A stretch of DNA of 64,000 bases from Pontibaca salina (GTDB lineage Bacteria; Pseudomonadota; Alphaproteobacteria; Rhodobacterales; Rhodobacteraceae): the NCBI RefSeq assembly GCF_016307205.1, contig NZ_JAEIJD010000001.1:62001-126000 (forward strand). The letters run 5' to 3'. Made by a program: the position numbers and the translations under genes. Positions within the stretch are counted from its first letter, which is position 1; each line of letters starts with the position of its first letter. Shown here in pieces: positions 1,462-41,101 of this stretch. The notes below the pieces were generated by a model. That model was not told where the DNA came from. It ran no database searches and saw nothing but the letters and a program-made list of their open reading frames with translations.

Positions 1462-1478
1462 TGGTGCACCCATCAGGA
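1462..1478. repeat. Left attachment site (attL) core
   Basis: This is a 17-bp exact copy of the tRNA-Arg 3' end (TGGTGCACCCATCAGGA), in the same orientation as the tRNA copy at 38558. The match stops at 1479 (C against T). No other part of the tRNA is present, which fits a remnant left at the distal end of an element that re-creates the tRNA at its other end. Confidence 0.82.
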
Positions 1479-2595: not shown

Positions 2596-2911
2596 GTGCC
2601 GGCAAGAGCTAGGAGCGAAGGCCTTTCGCTATCTGTGATTGGCTATGCGGTCATTCTGGCTGCGCAGTCTTTGGCCAGCTGGAAGAGCAGGCTGACGCCA
2701 CCGGTGGTGATCGGCGCTGGTAGGCAGCCCACCTATTTGAGAGCCAGCCTCTTTGTAAAATCAGTGTGGTTTAGGCCCTCAGCACAGCCCACAAGTGTTG
2801 CAAAGCCACATCACCAATTCAGAAAAAGTTTTTCGAGCCCCACGTTGATAGTGAGGCTGTGATCTGGATTTGTTAATGGCTCCCTTCGTACGTTACAAAA
2901 AGGTTATTGTT
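2596..2911. other. Intergenic region upstream of outer-membrane gene
   Basis: This 316-bp stretch has no convincing gene. The open frame at 2590-2862 lacks a ribosome binding site and looks non-coding. The AT-richer end (2810-2910) is the likely promoter region and leader of the outer-membrane protein gene. Confidence 0.5.
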
Positions 2912-3529
2912 ATGAAAAAATATCTTAACACCGTCGCCATCTCTTCGCTTCTCGCAGCCCCTGCCTTCGCAGGTAACCTGCAAGAGCCCAGCGTTGAGCC
3001 GATCATTGCAACCCCCGTTCAGGTGCAGCCGATCTCTGACTGGACCGGCTTTTATCTCGGTGCTCAGCTGGGCTACGGTGACGCTTGGACTTCGCCAGTC
3101 GGCGTCGCTCTTGATGGTGGCTTTGCCGGTGTACATGCTGGCTACTTGCACGATTTCGGCGATTTTGTTCTTGGTGGTGAATTGGACTATGATCGGTCCG
3201 ATATTTCGCAAAATCTCGGCGGCACCGAACTTAAAATCGATAAGGTTGCTCGCTTAAAACTGATCGGTGGCTACGATCTGGGTAAGGGTCTGGTCTACGC
3301 GACAGCCGGTGTATTTAACGGCAATCTGAAGGTGTCTGAACCAGGTTTCAGCGAGAGTGATGACGACAATGGCTGGGTGCTTGGCGGCGGCTATAAGCAC
3401 AAGTTCTCCGAGAACTGGATCGGTGGTGTCGAAGCACTGCACCACAAGATAAGTGACCTCGGAGGAGAGCTTGATGGACTAGACCTGAAGGCGACCACGA
3501 TCAGCGCACGGATCTCGTACAAGTTCTGA
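2912..3529 (+). CDS. Outer-membrane beta-barrel protein (prophage-located paralog)
   Basis: This 205-residue protein has a cleavable signal peptide (MKKYLNTVAISSLLAAPAFA) and a small barrel that ends in ISYKF, with the terminal Phe required for Bam-dependent insertion. It closely resembles the chromosomal protein at 48988-49575: both mature proteins start GNLQEP, share VQVQPISDWTGFY, and keep YKHKF.ENWIGGVE near the end. Central loop regions differ. It belongs to the opacity/OmpA-like porin barrel group. ATG 2912 is chosen because the signal peptide begins there. A strong terminator follows. Inside the prophage boundaries it could alter the lysogen surface, for example to block superinfection, but this is inference. 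Confidence 0.85.
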   Translation: MKKYLNTVAISSLLAAPAFAGNLQEPSVEPIIATPVQVQPISDWTGFYLGAQLGYGDAWTSPVGVALDGGFAGVHAGYLHDFGDFVLGGELDYDRSDISQNLGGTELKIDKVARLKLIGGYDLGKGLVYATAGVFNGNLKVSEPGFSESDDDNGWVLGGGYKHKFSENWIGGVEALHHKISDLGGELDGLDLKATTISARISYKF

Positions 3530-3616
3530 TCACGTGGGAGGCACGTCGATATATAGCTGAGCGAATTCGGTCTATAGCACACCGCCCATAAGACATCACT
3601 ACATCGACACGACTTG

Positions 3617-3650
3617 GCGCCCCGAGAGATTCGACTCTCGGGGCGCTTCT
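3617..3650 (+). terminator. Intrinsic terminator of the outer-membrane gene
   Basis: GCGCCCCGAGAG (3617-3628) pairs perfectly with CTCTCGGGGCGC (3635-3646) around loop ATTCGA, followed by the T-rich TTCTTGG. It isolates the outer-membrane gene from the downstream ATPase. The remaining 286 bp to 3936 show nothing recognisable. Confidence 0.8.
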
Positions 3651-3936: not shown

Positions 3937-5916
3937 ATGATGAATGAGGTCCAGCCGGGACGCCATCCGAATTTTGATATAACCATTTTTGATCCGGTTG
4001 AACAAAGAGTCCTGCGGCGAATGGAGCAAATATTCCATCTTACCCGAGATGGTGAGATAGCTGTAGGAAAACAAAAAAGTAGCTACCGCTACGCTCTTGT
4101 AAAACCGTGTGGGAAGATGCGCGGCATCCTTCACACTGATCGGGAGGTATTGGTTGTTTTCTCAGCGTATGAAGAGTTTCAACCGCGTTCGATAGATGCT
4201 TTCGATCACATCATGGAGCAACTCCCGGAAGCATTTCGCATCGAGAAGGTTGCGCGTATCTTAGTGAGCGGTGATGTAGAAATCCGAAAAAAACTCCGTT
4301 CCTTATTTGAAAGCAGACCGGATGCTCCGGTGGTCATTCCTTATCACTATTCCGAGTTTTCCCTTGCGACTTTGGAAGCGGATATTGTTTCAAGGATGCG
4401 AGAATTTTCATTCTCCAGAGACCTATTTTCAATGTCATCGCCACTTCGCAGTGAGCTATACTTCTATGGACGCTCCGACCTTATCAATGAAATATCTTCA
4501 AAACTTTCTTCTGGCGAAAACTTCGGTCTTTTTGGGCTGCGCAGAAGTGGCAAGACCTCTTTGATATCTGGAATAAGCCGAGCGCTTTCGACCAGGAGTG
4601 GCGCGAGCGTAACTATTGATTGTCAATCCCCATCTGTTCATCAGTTGCACTGGAATGAACTCCTCCATCATATTGCTTCAGAGCTTAAGCATGCGTTTTC
4701 TGTCAAACATAAAATTGGAAACGTAGAGGCATACGGTGCCAAGAATGCTGCGACCACTTTCCTCGAGGACATTAGGGTGATCGGAAAGCAGGCGAAGAAA
4801 GAGTTCGTAGCCGTTCTGTTTGATGAGATTGAGCGTATAGCGCCCGGAACAGCATCCTCAAGCCATTGGAACAACGAACGTGACTTTCTTCTTTTTTGGC
4901 AGTCAATGCGGGCAGCATTTCAAAGCTCCTCATCCCCAATTGTGTATCTCATAGTTGGAACTAACCCACACTGCATCGAGGCAATTAAACTATTTGAAAG
5001 CGATAATCCTTTGTATGGGAATGTTGAAAAGCGTTTTATCCCTATGTTTACACCTGACCAAATTTCGGAGATGGTGGCGGACCTTGGTGGCATCATGGGT
5101 GTTGAATTTGACGCTGAAAGCCGCATGAAATTATTTCAAGATTTTGGCGGTCACCCATTTCTCACACGGTATGCGTGTAGCTTCATCGCAAAGTCGGCAG
5201 GCGTTCGACCTGTTAAAGTTGACCGCACACTATATGCAAGAGGTGTTAACGAATATACGACCGAAGCAGAAAGTTATGTCGCATCTGTTGTAGGATTATT
5301 AGAAGAACAGTACCCAGACGAGCACCTAATGCTTGAGTATATTGGTCAAGGAGACTTGGCGAGTTTCGAGGCTCTCGCCCAACAAGATCAAAGCCTTCTT
5401 GAACACTTATATGGCTATGGCGTACTCAAGAAGGGTATTGAGGGGAGTTATTTTAATATTGGCGTTGTTGAGCAATATTTCGCAAATAAAGCCAAACCGG
5501 TAAAGTTACTCAGTACAGAAGATCGATTGGCTGAAATCTCAAAACGGCGGAATTCACTTGAAAGAAAAATTCGAGTTCACGTAGGAACTGTTTTCAGCGT
5601 TCATTTCTCCAGGGCAAAGCGAAGGGTAAACCTTGTTTCAAAGCTGATGGAGCGACGTCGGACCGACGTGGCAGGAGTTGACTTTGATAGCCTGTTAGCG
5701 GAAGGCGCCAGCCCGCTTTACTTTGATGAACTCAAGTCAATTATTTTGGGTTTTTGGGATAAATTCGAACACTCACTTGAAATGAATAAGTCTGAGTTTG
5801 AGTATCATATGGAAGTTGTTAATAAAGCGCGATATGATGCACACGCCAAAGATGTGCAAGATCACGATTTTGAAAAAGCGCGCGTCTCTCTTGTCGAACT
5901 TGAGTCCAAATTCTGA
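3937..5916 (+). CDS. AAA/STAND-like ATPase with HEPN-like C-terminus
   Basis: The 659-residue protein has three parts. Residues 1-190 form a domain I do not recognise. An ATPase core follows, with Walker A GLRRSGKTSL near 199-208 and Walker B AVLFDEIE near 292-299, introduced by YFYGRSDLI, typical of STAND-like AAA ATPases. From about residue 530, a helical C-terminus ends with NKARYDAHAKD (about 627-637), resembling the Arg-to-His catalytic motif of HEPN RNases of the Swt1 type, but with three residues between Arg and His where four or more are usual. The gene is visibly richer in A/T than its neighbours, suggesting separate acquisition. ATPase-HEPN architectures are common in anti-phage systems; a role in prophage-encoded immunity is inference. 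Confidence 0.7.
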   Translation: MMNEVQPGRHPNFDITIFDPVEQRVLRRMEQIFHLTRDGEIAVGKQKSSYRYALVKPCGKMRGILHTDREVLVVFSAYEEFQPRSIDAFDHIMEQLPEAFRIEKVARILVSGDVEIRKKLRSLFESRPDAPVVIPYHYSEFSLATLEADIVSRMREFSFSRDLFSMSSPLRSELYFYGRSDLINEISSKLSSGENFGLFGLRRSGKTSLISGISRALSTRSGASVTIDCQSPSVHQLHWNELLHHIASELKHAFSVKHKIGNVEAYGAKNAATTFLEDIRVIGKQAKKEFVAVLFDEIERIAPGTASSSHWNNERDFLLFWQSMRAAFQSSSSPIVYLIVGTNPHCIEAIKLFESDNPLYGNVEKRFIPMFTPDQISEMVADLGGIMGVEFDAESRMKLFQDFGGHPFLTRYACSFIAKSAGVRPVKVDRTLYARGVNEYTTEAESYVASVVGLLEEQYPDEHLMLEYIGQGDLASFEALAQQDQSLLEHLYGYGVLKKGIEGSYFNIGVVEQYFANKAKPVKLLSTEDRLAEISKRRNSLERKIRVHVGTVFSVHFSRAKRRVNLVSKLMERRRTDVAGVDFDSLLAEGASPLYFDELKSIILGFWDKFEHSLEMNKSEFEYHMEVVNKARYDAHAKDVQDHDFEKARVSLVELESKF

Positions 5917-6893: not shown

Positions 6894-7415
6894 TTACAAA
6901 TCCTCCAAGCAAAGTTTGTGTTCAGCCGCCCGCCGATTGACCAACCCCGGCAGGACGCGCCCCCCGGCCTTGTTCCACATCGTCACCGCATCGCAGCCGC
7001 CGCGATAATCGCCCGCATTGAAGCGCCGCACGGCAGTTGACCGGCACGCCCCGCCAACGCCAACGTTGTAGGTCCACGACACCAGCGCGACCTTAGTCTT
7101 GACCGGCAACGGCGTTGGCGGATCAAGGCAGGCGTCCAGCCCGCGCTCATGGGTTTCAAGCTCGCGGGTCAGCATCGCATCGCACTGCGCGCGCGTGGCG
7201 GTGTCGCCCATCTGCACGCCCTTGGTGATGCCCTCGCAGATCGTCGGGATGCCGACCGGATCGCGGTAAGCCACGTACCGCGTCCCCTCCCAGCCGCTGA
7301 CAAAGGCGATGGTCAGCGCCAGCCCCGCGACCGCGCCTTTCTTGGCTTGGCTTTTGGGCTTGTCTGGGTCGGGCCTTCGGAACAGCCCAATCAGGGCGGC
7401 GAAAAACTGTCTCAT
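6894..7415 (-). CDS. Phage lysozyme (GH24 endolysin, probable SAR type)
   Basis: This 173-residue muramidase cleaves the glycan strands of peptidoglycan. The catalytic triad E43-x8-D52-x5-T58 (in SGWEGTRYVAYRDPVGIPT) fits the T4/P21 lysozyme family exactly. Residues 27-42 (GAVAGLALTIAFVSGW) form a weakly hydrophobic helix directly before the active site, as in signal-arrest-release endolysins such as R21. Start 7415 is chosen for its GGAGA ribosome binding site; an in-frame start 15 bp upstream is less favoured. It leads the holin-spanin genes. Confidence 0.9.
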   Translation of the reverse strand: MRQFFAALIGLFRRPDPDKPKSQAKKGAVAGLALTIAFVSGWEGTRYVAYRDPVGIPTICEGITKGVQMGDTATRAQCDAMLTRELETHERGLDACLDPPTPLPVKTKVALVSWTYNVGVGGACRSTAVRRFNAGDYRGGCDAVTMWNKAGGRVLPGLVNRRAAEHKLCLEDL

Positions 7416-7431
7416 GCTATCTCCGCGCAAT

Positions 7432-32313: not shown

Positions 32314-32967
32314 ATGAATGCAATATACGATCGACTTAAAGAAGCTCGCGAAAAAGCAGGCTATGAAACTGCCGCCGATGCAGCCGGCGCCTTTGGCTGG
32401 CCATACCCAACCTATGCCGCCCATGAGAATGGCTCGCGGGGCTTTCGTGCTGAAACAGCACAGCGCTATGCAAAGGCCTTCCGCGTCACCGCTCACTGGC
32501 TTTTATACGGCGACGAAAATATTGACCGCGTGGAAGACGGCGAGCCAGCGCCCAGCAATGCAGCCCTGGTACCAGTCTATGACGTCGCCGCCAGCGCCGG
32601 CAATGGAACGGTGGTCGAGTACGAAGCCGAAATCTACAGCCTCGCGTTCCCACCCGACTACCTGAAAAAGCTGACCAGCAGCAGCCCTACGAACCTCGCG
32701 ATCATCAGCGTCAAGGGCGACAGCATGGACCCGACGCTGGTGGATGATGATGTGGTTCTACTTGACACCTCGAAGACAAACCTCAGCTTTGACGGCCTTT
32801 TTGTAATCCGCTTTGATGATGCGCTACACGTGAAGCGAGTCGGCAGATCCGCCAAGCCCGGACACGTGACTATCATCTCGGATAACACCGCTTTTCGCGA
32901 CATTGAGGCCAGCAAAGGCGACCTAAATGTTGTTGGGAAAGTACTTTGGTATGGGCGAAAAGTTTAG
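32314..32967 (+). CDS. CI-type repressor with S24 peptidase domain
   Basis: A 217-residue protein: an N-terminal HTH (AREKAGYETAADAAGAFGWP, then AHENGSRGFRAETAQRYA) and a C-terminal LexA/S24 domain (about 90-215) with the catalytic Ser in SVKGDSMDPTLVDDDVVLLD and a downstream Lys in FDDALHVKRVGR. It should maintain lysogeny and self-cleave upon RecA activation. The ribosome site is weak (AAGAG). The TagO-like gene follows 19 bp on and is likely co-transcribed. Confidence 0.9.
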   Translation: MNAIYDRLKEAREKAGYETAADAAGAFGWPYPTYAAHENGSRGFRAETAQRYAKAFRVTAHWLLYGDENIDRVEDGEPAPSNAALVPVYDVAASAGNGTVVEYEAEIYSLAFPPDYLKKLTSSSPTNLAIISVKGDSMDPTLVDDDVVLLDTSKTNLSFDGLFVIRFDDALHVKRVGRSAKPGHVTIISDNTAFRDIEASKGDLNVVGKVLWYGRKV

Positions 32968-32986
32968 ACTATTGAGGATTAATTTG

Positions 32987-33577
32987 ATGCGTGGACTTAT
33001 GGCAACCACAATTTTGATGATCTCTATGGAAGCGGCAGCCGCGCAAGAGGAGTGCGCTAAGATTGCGGACCCAGATGATCGACTCAACTGTTTCGATCAC
33101 TCATATAAGGTCACTGAGATAGTAGAAACCGCTAGCGACTGGGATGTTCGAATCGACAAGTCAAAGCTAGACGACAGCACTACTGTCGTAATGGCAGTCG
33201 ATAGCGACAACTCAATAACTCAACAGCTTGGCGGGTCATCCGCGGGCAATCTGATCATTCGCTGCCAAGAGAATACGACCTCCATATACCTTACTTGGGG
33301 CGGACACTTTATGGCCGACATTCAAGGCAAGGGTCGAGTAGACTACCGCATAGATGACAGGAAGGCTGCGAGGTCAAGCATGAGAGCATCGACTGACAAT
33401 AAGGCTCTAGGCCTCTGGAACGGAGCATCTTCTATTCCCTTCATAAAGGCGATGTTCGGCGGGGTCAGCCTTTATGTCCGCGCCACTCCATTCAGCGAAT
33501 CACCTGTCGAGATGACATTTAACATTTCCGGACTAGAGGAGGAGATCGCGCCACTTCGCGAGGCTTGCAACTGGTAA
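32987..33577 (+). CDS. TagO/VasI-like periplasmic protein
   Basis: A 196-residue protein with a signal peptide (MRGLMATTILMISMEAAAAQ) and a CAKIADPDDRLNCFD pattern close to the processed N-terminus. Then come KLDDSTTVVMAV, LIIRCQENTTSIYLTWG, a paired STDNKALGLW, and PLREACNW at the end. These are hallmarks of the TagO (VasI-type) family linked to type VI secretion, whose Cys residues form disulfides. It lies after the repressor in the same direction, so it should be made in the lysogen. No T6SS gene is present. ATG 32987 follows GAGGAT; a longer frame starts inside cI. Confidence 0.75.
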   Translation: MRGLMATTILMISMEAAAAQEECAKIADPDDRLNCFDHSYKVTEIVETASDWDVRIDKSKLDDSTTVVMAVDSDNSITQQLGGSSAGNLIIRCQENTTSIYLTWGGHFMADIQGKGRVDYRIDDRKAARSSMRASTDNKALGLWNGASSIPFIKAMFGGVSLYVRATPFSESPVEMTFNISGLEEEIAPLREACNW

Positions 33578-33762
33578 ATATGAGCCTCCGGCGCTCTCGC
33601 GCCCGGCCTCATTGACCCGTGGATCTGGAGAGAAAGGCGCGGCGCGGGCGGGGTAGACGTTTGATACCTGTAGACTTAAGAAGGGCTCGTCCCTATATGT
33701 AGAGGGCAACCGAACGTCTCTTAATTTGTTAATTGGCGCAAGACGCGCCTGATGGTGGAGAC

Positions 33763-34326
33763 ATGACTTACAACGCCCGAAAAGCTGCACAGACAATCGC
33801 GTTCTTCGTTATGAAGAACGGTGCGCTACCGCTTGCCGTTATCAAAGCGGTAAAGCTCGTATACCTTGCGGATCGTGAAAGCATCAGCCGCTTCGGCTTC
33901 CCCATTCAGGACGAAGACCGGGTCTCAATGAAACACGGGCCTGTGAACTCCGACACCTACTCGATGATAAACGGCGAGTGTGACCCAGCTAATACTGGCT
34001 GGTCATTGTATCTACGCGATCGCGAAGACAATAAGATTTCCCTTGCCCGACCCGACTTGACCGAGGATGACCTCGATGAACTTAGCGAGGCCGATATTGA
34101 AGCCTTAAATGCGACCTGGGATCGCTTCGGGCATATGGGAAAATGGCAGCTGCGCGACTGGACACACGTCCAAGCCAACATTCCTGAGTGGGAGAACCCT
34201 GGTAGTTCCTCATGGGTTATCCCGCTAGAGCGGATTATGGGACACCTCAACATACCCAACGTGGAAGAACAGGTTGCCACTGTGCGCGATTTCGACCACA
34301 TTGACCGTATTTTTCAGACGCTCTGA
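33763..34326 (+). CDS. Panacea (SocA/GepA, DUF4065) antitoxin-like protein
   Basis: A 187-residue protein with N-terminal RKAAQTIAFFVMKNGALPLA, VIKAVKLVYLADRESISRFG and VSMKHGPVNSDTYSMING, the defining pattern of the Panacea domain. Panacea proteins are antitoxins to many unrelated toxins, often in prophages. ATG 33763 is chosen from the GGTGGAG site; ten extra codons upstream are not needed. The next gene follows after 6 bp and is a likely toxin. Its mid-part (DLTEDDLDELSEADIEALNA) is very acidic. Confidence 0.85.
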   Translation: MTYNARKAAQTIAFFVMKNGALPLAVIKAVKLVYLADRESISRFGFPIQDEDRVSMKHGPVNSDTYSMINGECDPANTGWSLYLRDREDNKISLARPDLTEDDLDELSEADIEALNATWDRFGHMGKWQLRDWTHVQANIPEWENPGSSSWVIPLERIMGHLNIPNVEEQVATVRDFDHIDRIFQTL

Positions 34327-34805: not shown

Positions 34806-35162
34806 CTATCCAAGTGGAACACCCATTTCGGCGAGCTTAGCGCGCAAATAGCCGACGCCAATATCTTTCATGATTCCGAGACTTACTCCCGCCATACTCG
34901 CGGATGCTACTTTGGTTTTTTGCCAAATTTTGTCGTCCCGGATCGCCGCGCAGAAATCATGACCGGCGTTTGTCATCCTGAAAATTCCACCATAACGTCC
35001 ACTCTCCTCCAGAAACCCAGCGTCAGCTAGGCACTTTAGGTGATAGTATCGCCTACATTCCTCATGGGTCATACTAAGATGCTTAGCCGCTAATAAAAGC
35101 GGCTCGTCGCTGTCCTCAAAATCCGGCATCAACGTTCGGATCAAATCGTCATCCCGGCGCAT
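34806..35162 (-). CDS. DUF2513-like protein
   Basis: A 118-residue protein starting MRRDDDLIRTLMPDFEDSDE. This opening, with a winged-helix-like ECRRYYHLKCLADAGFLEES region and GGIFRMTNAGHDFCAAIRDD, is the DUF2513 pattern common in phages and mobile elements. The C-terminus is basic and helical. It is on the strand opposite to its neighbours. Probably a DNA-binding regulatory protein, but not proven. Confidence 0.75.
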   Translation of the reverse strand: MRRDDDLIRTLMPDFEDSDEPLLLAAKHLSMTHEECRRYYHLKCLADAGFLEESGRYGGIFRMTNAGHDFCAAIRDDKIWQKTKVASASMAGVSLGIMKDIGVGYLRAKLAEMGVPLG

Positions 35163-35383
35163 AATTTTATCCCCCGCACATATCCGGACAGGATGCCGAG
35201 CTGTGCTCGATTCTGCTAGCGCCATACCACCTCCCCCATCAGTCCCCGCGCCGGTTTTTCCATTCCAGCATATCAGGTGATTCTTTGGCGATCTACATCC
35301 CGCATACCCTCTATGCATCGAGCATTGACTCCGGGCTATGCGCTATGCATAATCGATCTATATCGAGCACAAGGGAAGCCGCA

Positions 35384-37252: not shown

Positions 37253-37468
37253 ATGGCCCCGCTGCGTGTCACGCCTAGATTGCTGTCCGCACCGCTGGCG
37301 GCTGAGTATCTTGCGGTGTCCGTCAGCACATTACGACTGCTGCCAATCCCCCGGCGCGCGCTGGGGTCACGGCGCCTCTATGACGCCCGCGACCTTGACG
37401 CCTATGCCGACTCGCTGCCTTATGATGAGCCTAAGGGTGAAAATACGTGCGACGATCTGTTCGGCTGA
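37253..37468 (+). CDS. Excisionase-like helix-turn-helix protein
   Basis: A 71-residue protein with a MerR/AlpA-like winged HTH: LLSAPLAAEYLAVSVSTLRL, then RRALGSRRLYDARDLDAYAD (the wing and C-terminal helix of Xis-type proteins). It lies just upstream of, and overlaps, the integrase gene by 22 bp. It would direct the integrase to excision. Confidence 0.75.
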   Translation: MAPLRVTPRLLSAPLAAEYLAVSVSTLRLLPIPRRALGSRRLYDARDLDAYADSLPYDEPKGENTCDDLFG

Positions 37469-38544
37469 AATACTTAATGGCGAATGGCCGCTTCAAGAGC
37501 GGGCGCACCCGGTACTATTATCGCCGCGCCGGTCGCCGCATTCCCCTGCCCGACTTCCCTGCCGATCACCCTGAATTCTTGGCACAATATGCCGCTGCTG
37601 CAAAACAATTTGACGAACGACCGCAACCTGGCCCCAATCATCAGACCGGAACCATCGGAGCCGGAATCAGGGCATTTCTGGCGTCCGACCACTACCTGAG
37701 CCGAGCCGCATCAACCCGCGCTGTCTGGCGGCGCATGCTGGAGCACTTGGAAGCAGACTATGGGAAGGCGATGATGGCCGACCTGCTGCCCCGCCACATC
37801 CGCAAGGACCTTGCGAAGCTGCCACCGCATCCGGCAAACAATCGCCTCAAGGTCTGGCGCGCTCTTGGCAAATGGTGGGTAAACTCGGGGCTGCTGGACA
37901 TGGACCCTGCCCGCGATGTGACCGCCCGAGAAACTCCAAAGACGGAAGGGCACGCACCGTGGGATCGCGCAGAGATAGAGGCATTCCGTGCGCGATGGGG
38001 ATACGATACCCCGCACCGACTTGCGTTTGAGCTGATCTTTTGGACCGGTGCGCGGCGCAGTGATGTCGTGAGGCTTGGCCCCGGCATGGTCGATGCGCAG
38101 GGCTGGCTGGTCTATGTGCAGCAGAAAACAGGCGGGCGCGTCGAGGTGCCATTCACTGCGCCCGCCCCTGAATGGGCAGAGCCAGACCAGCACCTGGCCA
38201 ACGCCATCGCGGCGCAAAGGGACCGGCACATGACTTGGGTCGTCACCCGAACCGGCAAGGCTCGATCATCAAAAGCCTTCGGGGCATGGTTTGCCACTGC
38301 GGCACGGGCTGCGGGAATCGCTGGAAAGACCGCCCACGGCCTGCGCAAGTCGCGCGGAATCGTCATGCGCGAGAACGGCGCAACGCTTGATCAGCGGATG
38401 GCTTGGCTAGGGCACGATTCCGCATCAGAAGCGCACCATTATGGCCGCGCGGCAGACGTGCGCCGGATCATTTCAGGAACGGAAAGTGCCCACTCGTCTG
38501 ACATAAGTGCCCAATTGCCAGCAAATATCGTTATAAAGCAATAG
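37447..38544 (+). CDS. Tyrosine site-specific integrase
   Basis: A 365-residue integrase starting with GTG 37447 (an ATG at 37477 is an alternative). An N-terminal arm-binding region and a core-binding domain (about 65-150) precede the catalytic domain, with Arg203 in TGARRSD, Lys near 227, His297 and Arg300 in HGLRKSR, His323 in GHDS and nucleophile Tyr332 in HYGRAAD. The stop lies 13 bp from the tRNA-Arg 3' end, so the integration site is beside its own gene. It integrates and, with the excisionase, releases the phage. Confidence 0.93.
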   Translation: MRRSVRLKYLMANGRFKSGRTRYYYRRAGRRIPLPDFPADHPEFLAQYAAAAKQFDERPQPGPNHQTGTIGAGIRAFLASDHYLSRAASTRAVWRRMLEHLEADYGKAMMADLLPRHIRKDLAKLPPHPANNRLKVWRALGKWWVNSGLLDMDPARDVTARETPKTEGHAPWDRAEIEAFRARWGYDTPHRLAFELIFWTGARRSDVVRLGPGMVDAQGWLVYVQQKTGGRVEVPFTAPAPEWAEPDQHLANAIAAQRDRHMTWVVTRTGKARSSKAFGAWFATAARAAGIAGKTAHGLRKSRGIVMRENGATLDQRMAWLGHDSASEAHHYGRAADVRRIISGTESAHSSDISAQLPANIVIKQ

Positions 38545-38557
38545 GTTAAAAAATATA

Positions 38558-38574
38558 TGGTGCACCCATCAGGA
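38558..38574. repeat. Right attachment site (attR) core
   Basis: The last 17 bases of tRNA-Arg, including the CCA end, are repeated at 1462-1478. The integrase cleaves and joins within this core. The tRNA sequence left of it comes from the phage attP, which restores the tRNA. Confidence 0.85.
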
Positions 38575-38634
38575 TTCGAACCTGAGGCCTTCGCCTTCGG
38601 AGGGCGACGCTCTATCCAGCTGAGCTATGGGTGC
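38558..38634 (-). tRNA. tRNA-Arg(CCG)
   Basis: The minus strand folds into a complete cloverleaf of 77 nt: acceptor GCACCCA/TGGGTGC, D stem GCTC/GAGC, anticodon stem TCGCC/GGCGA with loop CTCCGAA, T stem TCAGG/CCTGA, discriminator A and CCA. The anticodon CCG reads CGG codons. It is the integration target of the prophage. Confidence 0.93.
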
Positions 38635-38815: not shown

Positions 38816-40036
38816 TCAACCAAGCAGTTCATGAGCCAGTTCCAAAGCCTCAACCAATACATCAACCTCGGCCTTGGTGTTGTACAGGCCAAACGAAGCG
38901 CGGCAGGTAGCAGAAATCCCTAGAAAATCCATTAACGGACCGGCACAGTGATGGCCCGCCCGCACGGCCACCCCCTTCTTGTCAAGAATCGTCGAGATAT
39001 CGTGGGCATGTGCGGCGCCCTCCAGGGTAAAGGAAAAAATCGCGGCCTTATTCGGCGCCGTGCCCTGTAAGGTTAGCCAGTTCAACCCGCCAAGGCGCTC
39101 GAGCGCGTAATCGCGCAACACCCCTTCATGCGCCGCGATCTGCTCCATCCCAAGGTCCATCATATATTCCAGCGCCGCGCCCATTCCGATGGCCTGAACG
39201 ATGCCCGGTGTGCCGGCTTCGAACTTCATCGGCGGATCATTATAGATCACGCGGTCCTTGCTGACTTCGCGGATCATGTCTCCGCCACCGATGAATGGGC
39301 GCATCTCGGCCATGCGCTCGGGACGGATATGGATCGCGCCCGACCCCGATGGTCCATAAAGCTTGTGGCCGGTGATCGCGTAAAAATCACATCCGATATC
39401 GGAAACGTCGACAGGCATATGCACCGCCGCCTGACTGCCATCGACCAGAACCGGCACGCCCTTGTCATGGGCACCTCGCGTAATCGCCTTTACATCAACA
39501 ACGGTCCCCAACACATTGGAGCAATGGCTGACCGCGACCAGTTTCGTACGCGGTCCGATGGCATCTATCACCGCCTGCGGGTCCAGTGCTCCCGTGGCAT
39601 CCACATCGACCCATTTCAATACAACTCCTTGGCGTTCACGCAGGAAATGCCAGGGCACAATATTGGCGTGATGTTCCATTACCGAGAGGACGATCTCGTC
39701 GCCCGCCTGCAGCCGCGGCATGGCCCAGCCATAGGCGACCATGTTGATACCTTGGGTTGCGCCGGAATTCAGCACGATTTCATGTTCCGAGGACGCGTTC
39801 AGAAAACGCGCCACGATGCCGCGTACGGCTTCGTATTTTTCGGTCATGATATTGGAAAGATAGTGCAAACCCCGGTGAACATTGGAATATTCTTCGGCGT
39901 AACCACGCGTGATTGCGTCGATGACCACTTGCGGCTTTTGTGCCGAAGCTCCGTTGTCGAGATAGGTCAGCGGTTTGCTGTTGACCTTGCGCGACAGGAT
40001 CGGGAAATCGGCACGAATCTTGTCAATGTCATACAT
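38816..40036 (-). CDS. sufS: Cysteine desulfurase SufS
   Basis: A 406-residue class V PLP enzyme that takes sulfur from cysteine for Fe-S cluster assembly. Seen are the PLP-lysine segment ITGHKLYGPSG, the DNGASAQKP start, GATQGINMVAY, and the reactive Cys loop RAGHHCAGPLM near the C-terminus. Length fits the SufS group (about 405), longer than IscS. ATG 40036 is chosen since MYDIDKIRADFPILSR is the standard start. It is the last gene of the Suf operon in this window, after a YIP1-like gene. Confidence 0.95.
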   Translation of the reverse strand: MYDIDKIRADFPILSRKVNSKPLTYLDNGASAQKPQVVIDAITRGYAEEYSNVHRGLHYLSNIMTEKYEAVRGIVARFLNASSEHEIVLNSGATQGINMVAYGWAMPRLQAGDEIVLSVMEHHANIVPWHFLRERQGVVLKWVDVDATGALDPQAVIDAIGPRTKLVAVSHCSNVLGTVVDVKAITRGAHDKGVPVLVDGSQAAVHMPVDVSDIGCDFYAITGHKLYGPSGSGAIHIRPERMAEMRPFIGGGDMIREVSKDRVIYNDPPMKFEAGTPGIVQAIGMGAALEYMMDLGMEQIAAHEGVLRDYALERLGGLNWLTLQGTAPNKAAIFSFTLEGAAHAHDISTILDKKGVAVRAGHHCAGPLMDFLGISATCRASFGLYNTKAEVDVLVEALELAHELLG

Positions 40037-40619
40037 GGGCATATGCCTCCAGGAACGAGCCTCCGACAAAGCTCAGGATGAACGTCAGAACCAGCAGGAT
40101 CGCCAGCGCCGAGATCAGCAGAACCCCAGCCGAACGCATCAGCGAGCCAAAATTGTGGGCCTGATTAATGAAGTGCAGCATAATGAAGATACCGTAGAAT
40201 ACAGCCGCCAGCACCACCATCGCCGAAAGCACGGGCGCCAGCAACGCAAGGAACAACGCGACAGCCTGAATCGCCACACGCAGAAGCTGGATCCAGCCCA
40301 CCAGAACCATGATATCTTCAAGCGTGCCGGTCCCGCCCAGCAGTCGACCAAATACGTGCAGCGACACCACGCTCAGCGACAACCCAGCAGCGACGACGAC
40401 GAAATACAGGATTGGCGCCGGTAACAGCACACTAAGCTCCGGGGGCGGCGGCAATGCAATGTTGGACACCGCAAACAACAGGGCATTCAACACAGCCACC
40501 AGCAACAGCGCAGTCCATAGCACATCGCGCGTCAGGCCAAGGCCGATCAGCGTTCGGGCTGCTCCCGCTGGGTCGGTGATGGTGGCAACGGTCAGTGGGC
40601 GCCAGTCGGTACCGGTCAT
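40029..40619 (-). CDS. YIP1-family membrane protein
   Basis: A 196-residue protein with five hydrophobic segments (for example ILYFVVVAAGLSLSVVSLHV and LLISALAILLVLTFILSFVG). The length and topology match bacterial YIP1/DUF1282-type proteins. It overlaps the neighbouring YIP1-like gene (ATGA) and sufS by 8 bp. Two YIP1-like genes within a Suf operon suggest a membrane link, but the function is unknown. Confidence 0.8.
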   Translation of the reverse strand: MTGTDWRPLTVATITDPAGAARTLIGLGLTRDVLWTALLLVAVLNALLFAVSNIALPPPPELSVLLPAPILYFVVVAAGLSLSVVSLHVFGRLLGGTGTLEDIMVLVGWIQLLRVAIQAVALFLALLAPVLSAMVVLAAVFYGIFIMLHFINQAHNFGSLMRSAGVLLISALAILLVLTFILSFVGGSFLEAYAHV

Positions 40620-41101
40620 GTCGGAGCCCTTTCGGCAACTGTTAGGGTGGAAATCCAGAACCACACAAACACCGCCAGCCAGACAAAGCCAACCCCCGAA
40701 ACCGCCGGTCCGGGCCCGATGAACCCGGCCACCAGCCCGTGCAGCAGCAATAACGGGGTTGAAGCCAGAAGCGACCAGAACAGCGCCAGACGCGCCCCGA
40801 ACCAATCGCCCCTCCCGCCCAGTATCCGCGCCAGCAAATGCGAAACTCCCGCCAGCGCATACATCAGCAAGGGAGCAATGAAGATCCAGGCCAGCAAGGT
40901 GCCCCCCATCAGCATATTCAAATCCTCACCCGTCAGATGGGCCTCTCGCGCAAGGCGCGGCATCTGCGCAATAAATACGATGACGCAGGCACCCATGAGA
41001 AAGGCCAGCGCGCGATCTTCGCGCTGGCCCATCGTCATGAGGCGCCGCATGACCCGCCCCGGCGCGGCATAGGTTGCCGCGATGTCATTGGTCACTGGCA
41101 T
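40616..41101 (-). CDS. YIP1-family membrane protein
   Basis: A 161-residue protein starting at ATG 41101, whose A is the last base of the sufD stop (TGATG). It has four hydrophobic segments (ALAFLMGACVIVFIAQMPRL; LAWIFIAPLLMYALAGVSHL; LLASTPLLLLHGLVAGFIGP; VGFVWLAVFVWFWISTLTVA). It is coupled to the next YIP1-like gene and is likely its partner. Confidence 0.8.
   Translation of the reverse strand: MPVTNDIAATYAAPGRVMRRLMTMGQREDRALAFLMGACVIVFIAQMPRLAREAHLTGEDLNMLMGGTLLAWIFIAPLLMYALAGVSHLLARILGGRGDWFGARLALFWSLLASTPLLLLHGLVAGFIGPGPAVSGVGFVWLAVFVWFWISTLTVAERAPT

Follow-up and report, generated by a model that had tools for sequence, protein, structure and literature searches.

The open reading frame at positions 3937-5916 (+) of the window, the 64,000-nucleotide stretch of Pontibaca salina DNA analyzed here, raises the question of whether a single gene carried by a prophage could provide a complete defense function, with an ATPase joined to a divergent HEPN domain in one polypeptide. 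The initial annotation, made from the sequence, proposed such a single-gene system.

The gene and its prophage

From its ATG start, the reading frame, located exactly where the initial annotation had placed it, encodes a protein of 659 amino acids in which, according to the Pfam matches, a homolog and the family alignment, an REase-like domain, a STAND-like ATPase and a HEPN domain follow one another. One copy was found in the genome. The homolog, from Roseibium aggregatum (L001), matches the protein over its full length, all 659 residues, at 81% identity, and the two genes are saturated with synonymous differences (pS 0.80) at a low level of nonsynonymous ones (pN 0.118), which rules out a chance reading frame and points to an old gene that evolves under purifying selection. 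By part, identity to this homolog is highest in the ATPase (86%) and lowest in the C-terminal domain (72%). The description of the gene as AT-rich stands, its GC content being 0.448 vs 0.601 for the remainder of the prophage, and its GC3 0.42 vs 0.65-0.80 in seven phage genes. Counts of promoters and terminators do not clearly exceed those in shuffled sequences. Between the preceding outer-membrane gene and the ATPase-HEPN gene, a GC-rich stem-loop of 13 pairs followed by a T-rich tail, terminator-like in appearance, is found at 3616-3647 (+).

The integrase gene of the prophage (37447..38544, +; phrog_1, E 1.2e-29) lies beside a tRNA-Arg gene (38558-38634), and a 17-bp exact repeat within the latter (38558..38574, +) recurs at the far end of the element (1462..1478, +) as an exact copy of the 3' end of the tRNA. 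The genes for the terminase, portal, major head protein, tape measure, endolysin, repressor and primase are all located between these att repeats. With an integrase next to a tRNA and with head, tail and lysis genes enclosed by att repeats, the assignment of the gene to a prophage cargo region proved correct. The ATPase-HEPN gene is on the strand opposite to the prophage late genes and adjoins the endolysin end, the endolysin gene itself (6894..7430, -; phrog_7, E 7.4e-56) being the first recognized phage gene in that direction. Its other flank is occupied by an outer-membrane beta-barrel gene (2870-3529), and folE, the gene for GTP cyclohydrolase I (1826-2566, +; PF01227, E 5.5e-42), also lies within the att repeats; the three genes constitute a block of cargo at this end of the prophage. 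Situated between the att sites, odd in composition and not a core phage gene, the ATPase-HEPN gene has the attributes of a moron.

Some other features of this region are worth recording in their own right. The folE gene is unusual as phage cargo and is perhaps tied to 7-deazaguanine metabolism, or is simply host-derived. In the prophage early region, a SocA/Panacea antitoxin-like domain protein (33733-34326, +) is encoded near a DUF2513 protein (34806-35318, -), a neighborhood that might represent toxin-antitoxin or defense cargo. The gene at 32927-33577 (+), oddly placed immediately behind the phage repressor, encodes a protein that matches VasI of type VI secretion (PF11319, 68.5 bits). Just outside the prophage, positions 40001-41000 show an AT skew of 0.395 vs -0.02 and -0.06 in the flanking 1-kb segments.

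Three domains in one protein

The middle of the protein, about residues 166-440 (4432..5256, +), is a STAND-like/AAA ATPase core, as was recognized initially: AAA_35 (residues 193-419; 31.0 bits vs the Pfam cut-off of 27) and nSTAND6 (residues 177-251; 29.5 bits vs 27.7, covering positions 2-72 of 148) both score over their cut-offs, and the Walker motifs are intact. In an alignment of 20 proteins, query included, the Walker A motif GLRRSGKTS (residues 200-208; 4534..4560, +) retains G200, R202, G205, K206, T207 and S208 throughout (20/20), the Walker B pair Asp296-Glu297 (4822..4827, +) is equally invariant (20/20), and so are G404 and P407 (20/20) of the sequence GGHP at residues 404-407 (5146..5157, +), which we take to be the GxP-like motif of STAND NTPases. 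Because the Walker A and B residues are invariant in all 20 proteins, the protein can be expected to bind and hydrolyze ATP. Behind the ATPase and in front of the HEPN domain, residues 441-520 (5257..5496, +) would presumably form a helical lid or a winged helix. Scans of the protein against Pfam, NCBIfam and PADLOC, as well as sequence searches of the PDB, returned only ATPase or chance rows; PADLOC gave no convincing system match, the best E of 0.0058 pertaining to the ATPase segment only.

The C-terminal 139 residues (521-659; 5497..5913, +) are, on the evidence of model, profile and motifs, a divergent HEPN domain of the Swt1 type, in agreement with the HEPN-like C-terminus originally suggested. 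The AF2 model of this region, built from 11 sequences, consists of helices only (mean pLDDT 90), the all-alpha fold that this suggestion anticipated. An hhalign comparison of 16 C-termini of the family with 12 HEPN_Swt1 regions gave a probability of 96.2 and a score of 58.8 over 112 columns, vs a mean of 10.1 and a maximum of 18.9 for 200 column shuffles, and 10.75 for the reversed alignment; other parts of the ATPase-HEPN family, three in all, scored 12.3-14.1. The 12 regions were fetched from other genomes and include one under the Pfam cut-off (L038) and three (L030, L031, L033) that were cut around the R..xxH motif, the locus edge being near the contig end. With the Pfam model HEPN_Swt1 (PF18731), two of the 16 relatives matched at 19.4 and 18.2 bits, under the cut-off of 27.5, across 98 and 105 of the 115 model positions; a PF18731 scan of 41 near relatives yielded one partial match, also under the cut-off, and the window protein itself matched no Pfam HEPN family even at E up to 10.

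Among the VIA-align rows for the C-terminal model, ranks 1-4 are the Roquin-2 ROQ region (Z 7.7 and 7.1), 2hsb (7.0) and 1ufb (6.0), ranks 5-8 (Z 5.5-4.5) are not HEPN, and rank 9 is the HEPN structure 4nqf (Z 4.5), all rows being below 8 in a range, under about 13, where the Z of helical bundles can reflect a common arrangement. We take the Roquin-2 ROQ region to contain a HEPN domain and 1ufb to be one. Foldseek found nothing significant for this model in the PDB, with the best row again the HEPN structure 4nqf (E 2.1), and nothing significant among viral structures; the HEPN call therefore rests on the profile, the motifs and the second-look alignment.

The sequence NKARYDAHAKD, singled out initially for an Arg-to-His spacing one shorter than usual, indeed occupies residues 629-639. 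As described in the accessible text of PMC3710099, the leading, although not universal, motif of HEPN domains is Rx4-6H, and many HEPN families have a second motif, Ex3[KR]. In RYDAHA (residues 632-637; 5830..5847, +), three residues separate Arg632 from His636, one under the lower end of the published range, resulting in Rx3H in place of Rx4-6H; the second signature is found as the Ex3R of Glu542-Arg546 (5560..5574, +). These features are family-wide. The HEPN C-terminus is present in 16 of the 20 aligned proteins, and all 16 of these C-terminal rows have R-x-[DE]-A-H-A, as do four more copies, each close to an aligned member (L024, L004, L039, L040); two rows, L016 and L017, read RRYEAHA and are the only ones that also allow an Rx4H reading. 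The invariant columns of the 16 rows are six in number (R538, E542, R632, A635, H636 and A637), five of them inside the two HEPN-type motifs. Since the x3 spacing of all 16 rows departs from Rx4-6H, we file the domain as a divergent HEPN homolog and not as a canonical HEPN RNase; the E and the R or K of Ex3[KR] are in place in 16 of 16. As to the original choice between a variant active site and an inactive fold, the short spacing is no peculiarity of this gene but is fixed across the family (16/16), which favors a variant site over a decayed one. Two residues spaced i to i+4 can lie on the same side of a helix, but the model places the motif past the helix end, in its least confident inner part (model residues 111-120; mean pLDDT 63), and any Arg-His geometry read from it is tentative.

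Some relatives depart from this domain order. In L003 (1405-3456) and L015 (7896-9944), the N-terminal domain and the ATPase are kept and the C-terminus looks unrelated, with the motifs RNKHCH and RNKFCH, respectively, both of the regular Rx4H form, possibly an effector swap to another HEPN group; hhalign of these C-termini, two rows only that are 70% identical (whole protein), gave no match to the family (score 10.5) or to HEPN_Swt1 (11.3). In L018 (7086-9377) and L019 (357-2861), the shared ATPase stands behind N-terminal TPR repeats and the protein ends without a HEPN domain; L018 also has a weak cold-shock-domain match. With two proteins that differ at the C-terminus and two that lack the domain, the ATPase core does not require the HEPN domain.

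For the N-terminal domain (about residues 1-165; 3937..4431, +), the structure prediction proposed at the outset gave an alpha/beta fold that appears PD-(D/E)xK-like, without the ExK signature (AF2 model of residues 1-173, pLDDT 81.7). The VIA-align rows for this model include EndoMS (Z 6.7), FokI (6.1), N.BspD6I (5.8), Can2 (5.4) and XisH (5.3), and lower down EcoT38I, Shedu and Cap4 along with many Rpb5 and several acetyl-CoA carboxylase structures, all with Z under 7 and rmsd of 3.6-5.5 Å; the best Foldseek E is 0.03, to Rpb5. Many of these VIA-align matches, Rpb5 included, presumably belong to the PD-(D/E)xK-like fold class. Across the 12 N-terminal rows of the alignment, T36, P57, E70, R84, R101, L163 and P169 are invariant, Glu70 being the only strictly invariant acidic residue, and either Asp or Glu occupies columns 90, 103 and 129 in every row; Lys occurs at E70+2 in none of the 12 rows, and no column is always Lys. 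The three acidic columns may belong to a metal site, which weakens the claim of a dead domain. With modest confidence, we interpret the domain as a nuclease fold that has been converted to binding and could plausibly sense DNA or protein.

Spread of the family

The protein has few full-length relatives, and these are dispersed among prophages, plasmids and genome contigs. In searches whose counts each include the own genome, the family gene was found in 2 genomes out of 292 from the order, in 3 out of 385 from the class and, with a profile, in 4 out of 398 from the phylum; the last count also includes one genome from the order set (G016). Using the protein as the query, tblastn matched 20 of 72,556 plasmid records (16 from Klebsiella, 2 from Nostoc, with the ATPase only, 1 from Qingshengfaniella and 1 from Deinococcus) and none of 50,697 phage records, the latter result being the same with the L010 protein. 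Two profile scans of IMG/VR detected 12 loci (11, then L024), of which two lack the HEPN part; when closer viral relatives were sought with A6, L016, L012 and L005, no new family member came up.

The L010 gene has matches in 2 of 5,426 Escherichia coli genomes (87%), and the L024 gene has none in E. coli genomes. Both E. coli copies lie between prfC and yjjG in one and the same prophage remnant, where the family gene is intact beside an integrase and five features nearby are marked as pseudogenes; because the two copies share the protein accession WP_097318268.1, they perhaps derive from one event. The L014 copy directly follows an integrase gene that we read as P4-like. In all 10 viral loci checked, the GC content of the family gene is below that of the rest of the locus.

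A shared neighbor gene was not seen in six genome-assembly loci, where ORF starts were compared by eye, the incomplete gene tables of the Klebsiella, Qingshengfaniella and Deinococcus plasmids show no immediate partner in common, and none of the partly examined neighborhoods has a defense system as the annotated immediate neighbor. On a Klebsiella plasmid (L004), VapBC is encoded about 4.5 kb downstream of the family gene; on the Deinococcus plasmid (L006), the corresponding distance to an AbrB/MazE-PIN pair is about 3 kb, also downstream. The initial interpretation of the window gene as single-gene prophage cargo is supported.

A candidate conflict protein and its known counterparts

An ATPase in the middle, a probable sensor in front, a HEPN domain at the back, no partner gene seen and a place in mobile cargo fit the pattern of one-protein abortive infection, and we consider it somewhat probable that the gene encodes a self-contained, prophage-borne conflict protein, an ATP-gated HEPN RNase that acts by abortive infection. 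In the resting state, the STAND-like ATPase module would keep the C-terminal Swt1-type HEPN domain inactive. Infection would be sensed, perhaps when a phage protein or phage DNA is bound by the N-terminal domain with its nuclease-like fold, and nucleotide exchange and oligomerization would then allow the HEPN domains to meet as an RNase, with Arg632, His636 and Glu542 as the predicted RNase residues. Cleavage of RNA would halt growth before the competing phage multiplies. That the protein is an unnamed mobile one-protein switch, in which a REase fold devoid of its signature senses the phage and the STAND-like ATPase gates a re-spaced HEPN RNase, is a tentative and rather doubtful proposal. If the domain is active, the Arg-His pair of HEPN tolerates a shorter spacing than the published rule, such that motif scans would miss members, and the known families would be joined by one in which a lone gene, carried about by prophages and plasmids, encodes the ATPase-HEPN protein. 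The family is found in Alphaproteobacteria, Enterobacteriaceae and Deinococcus, and its E. coli homolog is testable in laboratory strains.

The same architecture could serve other ends. The HEPN domain might be an RNA- or protein-binding regulatory module rather than an RNase, the effector being the N-terminal nuclease-like domain or a recruited partner; in this case, the departure of Rx3H from the published Rx4-6H, the inactive, RNA-sensing HEPN domain inferred for eukaryotic Swt1 (both according to the available text of PMC3710099), and the retention of the ATPase without the C-terminal domain in L018 and L019 would be readily explained. However, in all 16 rows R, H and Ex3[KR] rank with the best-conserved residues of the domain, which is not how a decaying motif would look; moreover, the N-terminal domain lacks ExK in all 12 rows, and no shared partner gene was seen in the 6 loci, so we regard a regulatory HEPN as unlikely. 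Were the REase-like domain to bind, nick or cut phage DNA in a restriction-like manner with the help of the ATPase, the HEPN domain would be a backup. The numerous N-terminal VIA-align rows that are nucleases of the PD-(D/E)xK type, as well as the invariant Glu70 and the acidic columns 90, 103 and 129 (12/12), point in this direction; nevertheless, with Z below 7, rmsd of 3.6-5.5 Å and Foldseek E not under 0.03, with many rows being non-nucleases, that is, Rpb5 or acetyl-CoA carboxylase, and with neither ExK nor an always-Lys column in the 12 rows, a DNA-targeting factor seems very unlikely.

A function outside defense, in lysogeny, stress or replicon maintenance, would make the protein an addiction-like toxin that harms cells losing the element. 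Such a role would suit a singleton gene found on prophages and plasmids, HEPN toxins are known in toxin-antitoxin pairs (PMC3710099, in the text available), and the toxin-antitoxin pairs located about 3-5 kb off on the Klebsiella and Deinococcus plasmids fit plasmid maintenance. Yet no antitoxin-like partner is annotated next to the gene in L004, L005, L006, L039 and L040, as far as the incomplete plasmid tables go, and the large ATPase-HEPN architecture is closer to that of triggered defense proteins, which makes this role quite improbable.

The proposed ATP-gated HEPN RNase resembles several known systems in part. With the Swt1-like HEPN family (PF18731), it shares a homologous HEPN domain (hhalign 96%) and the fusion to an ATPase; in the accessible portion of PMC3710099, a Swt1-like HEPN fused to a STAND-ATPase is tabled among STAND-ATPase/TPR/S1 fusions. 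The exact architecture of the window protein may already be included there. As compared with Swt1-like HEPN, the window protein reads R-x-[DE]-A-H rather than R-x4-H, scores under the cut-off in Pfam and carries the HEPN domain at the C-terminus, behind the REase-like domain and the ATPase. PrrC and RloC likewise join an ATPase to a HEPN RNase, but their ATPase is of the ABC type and their HEPN domain belongs to another family; both are tabled in PMC3710099.

The Ava_2192 / DUF499 proteins, which belong to BREX-related systems according to the accessible parts of PMC3710099 and PMC12839542, likewise combine an Abi2/Swt1-group HEPN domain with an AAA+ ATPase in defense loci; there, however, HEPN is N-terminal and occurs along with a methylase and a helicase, whereas the window protein has it at the C-terminus and is encoded by a lone gene. 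Tha, from a Staphylococcus aureus prophage, is a HEPN defense protein that is activated by phage tail proteins and has RNase activity (PMC11087260, available text). Like the window protein, it is the product of a single prophage gene with a C-terminal HEPN domain and an N-terminus without assignment, but it is only 301 aa long and contains the regular Rx4H motif R265NSIMH270, and the word ATPase does not appear in the available text of the paper (PMC11087260). The STAND defense proteins of P4-like satellites share the ATPase switch, an exchangeable effector and the location in satellite hotspots, but have an N-terminal effector and C-terminal repeats in the accessible text of PMC9122126, whereas in the window protein no repeats were noted and HEPN is C-terminal. 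In the part of the DefensePredictor study available (PMC13092281), 31 further validated systems are reported, with four HEPN and seven P-loop NTPase cases, plus a CBS-HEPN protein.

In open-licence PMC text, without supplements, the literature on related systems includes none identifiable as this ATPase-HEPN protein: AAA_35 and HEPN together had no match, and RxxxH is absent among the matches listed. The protein may have been tested experimentally before, with the E. coli screens described in the accessible parts of PMC9519451 and PMC13092281 as possible instances. The principle of the fusion is already in print, and the unusual traits of this protein are a HEPN motif re-spaced across the entire family and a REase-like N-terminus.
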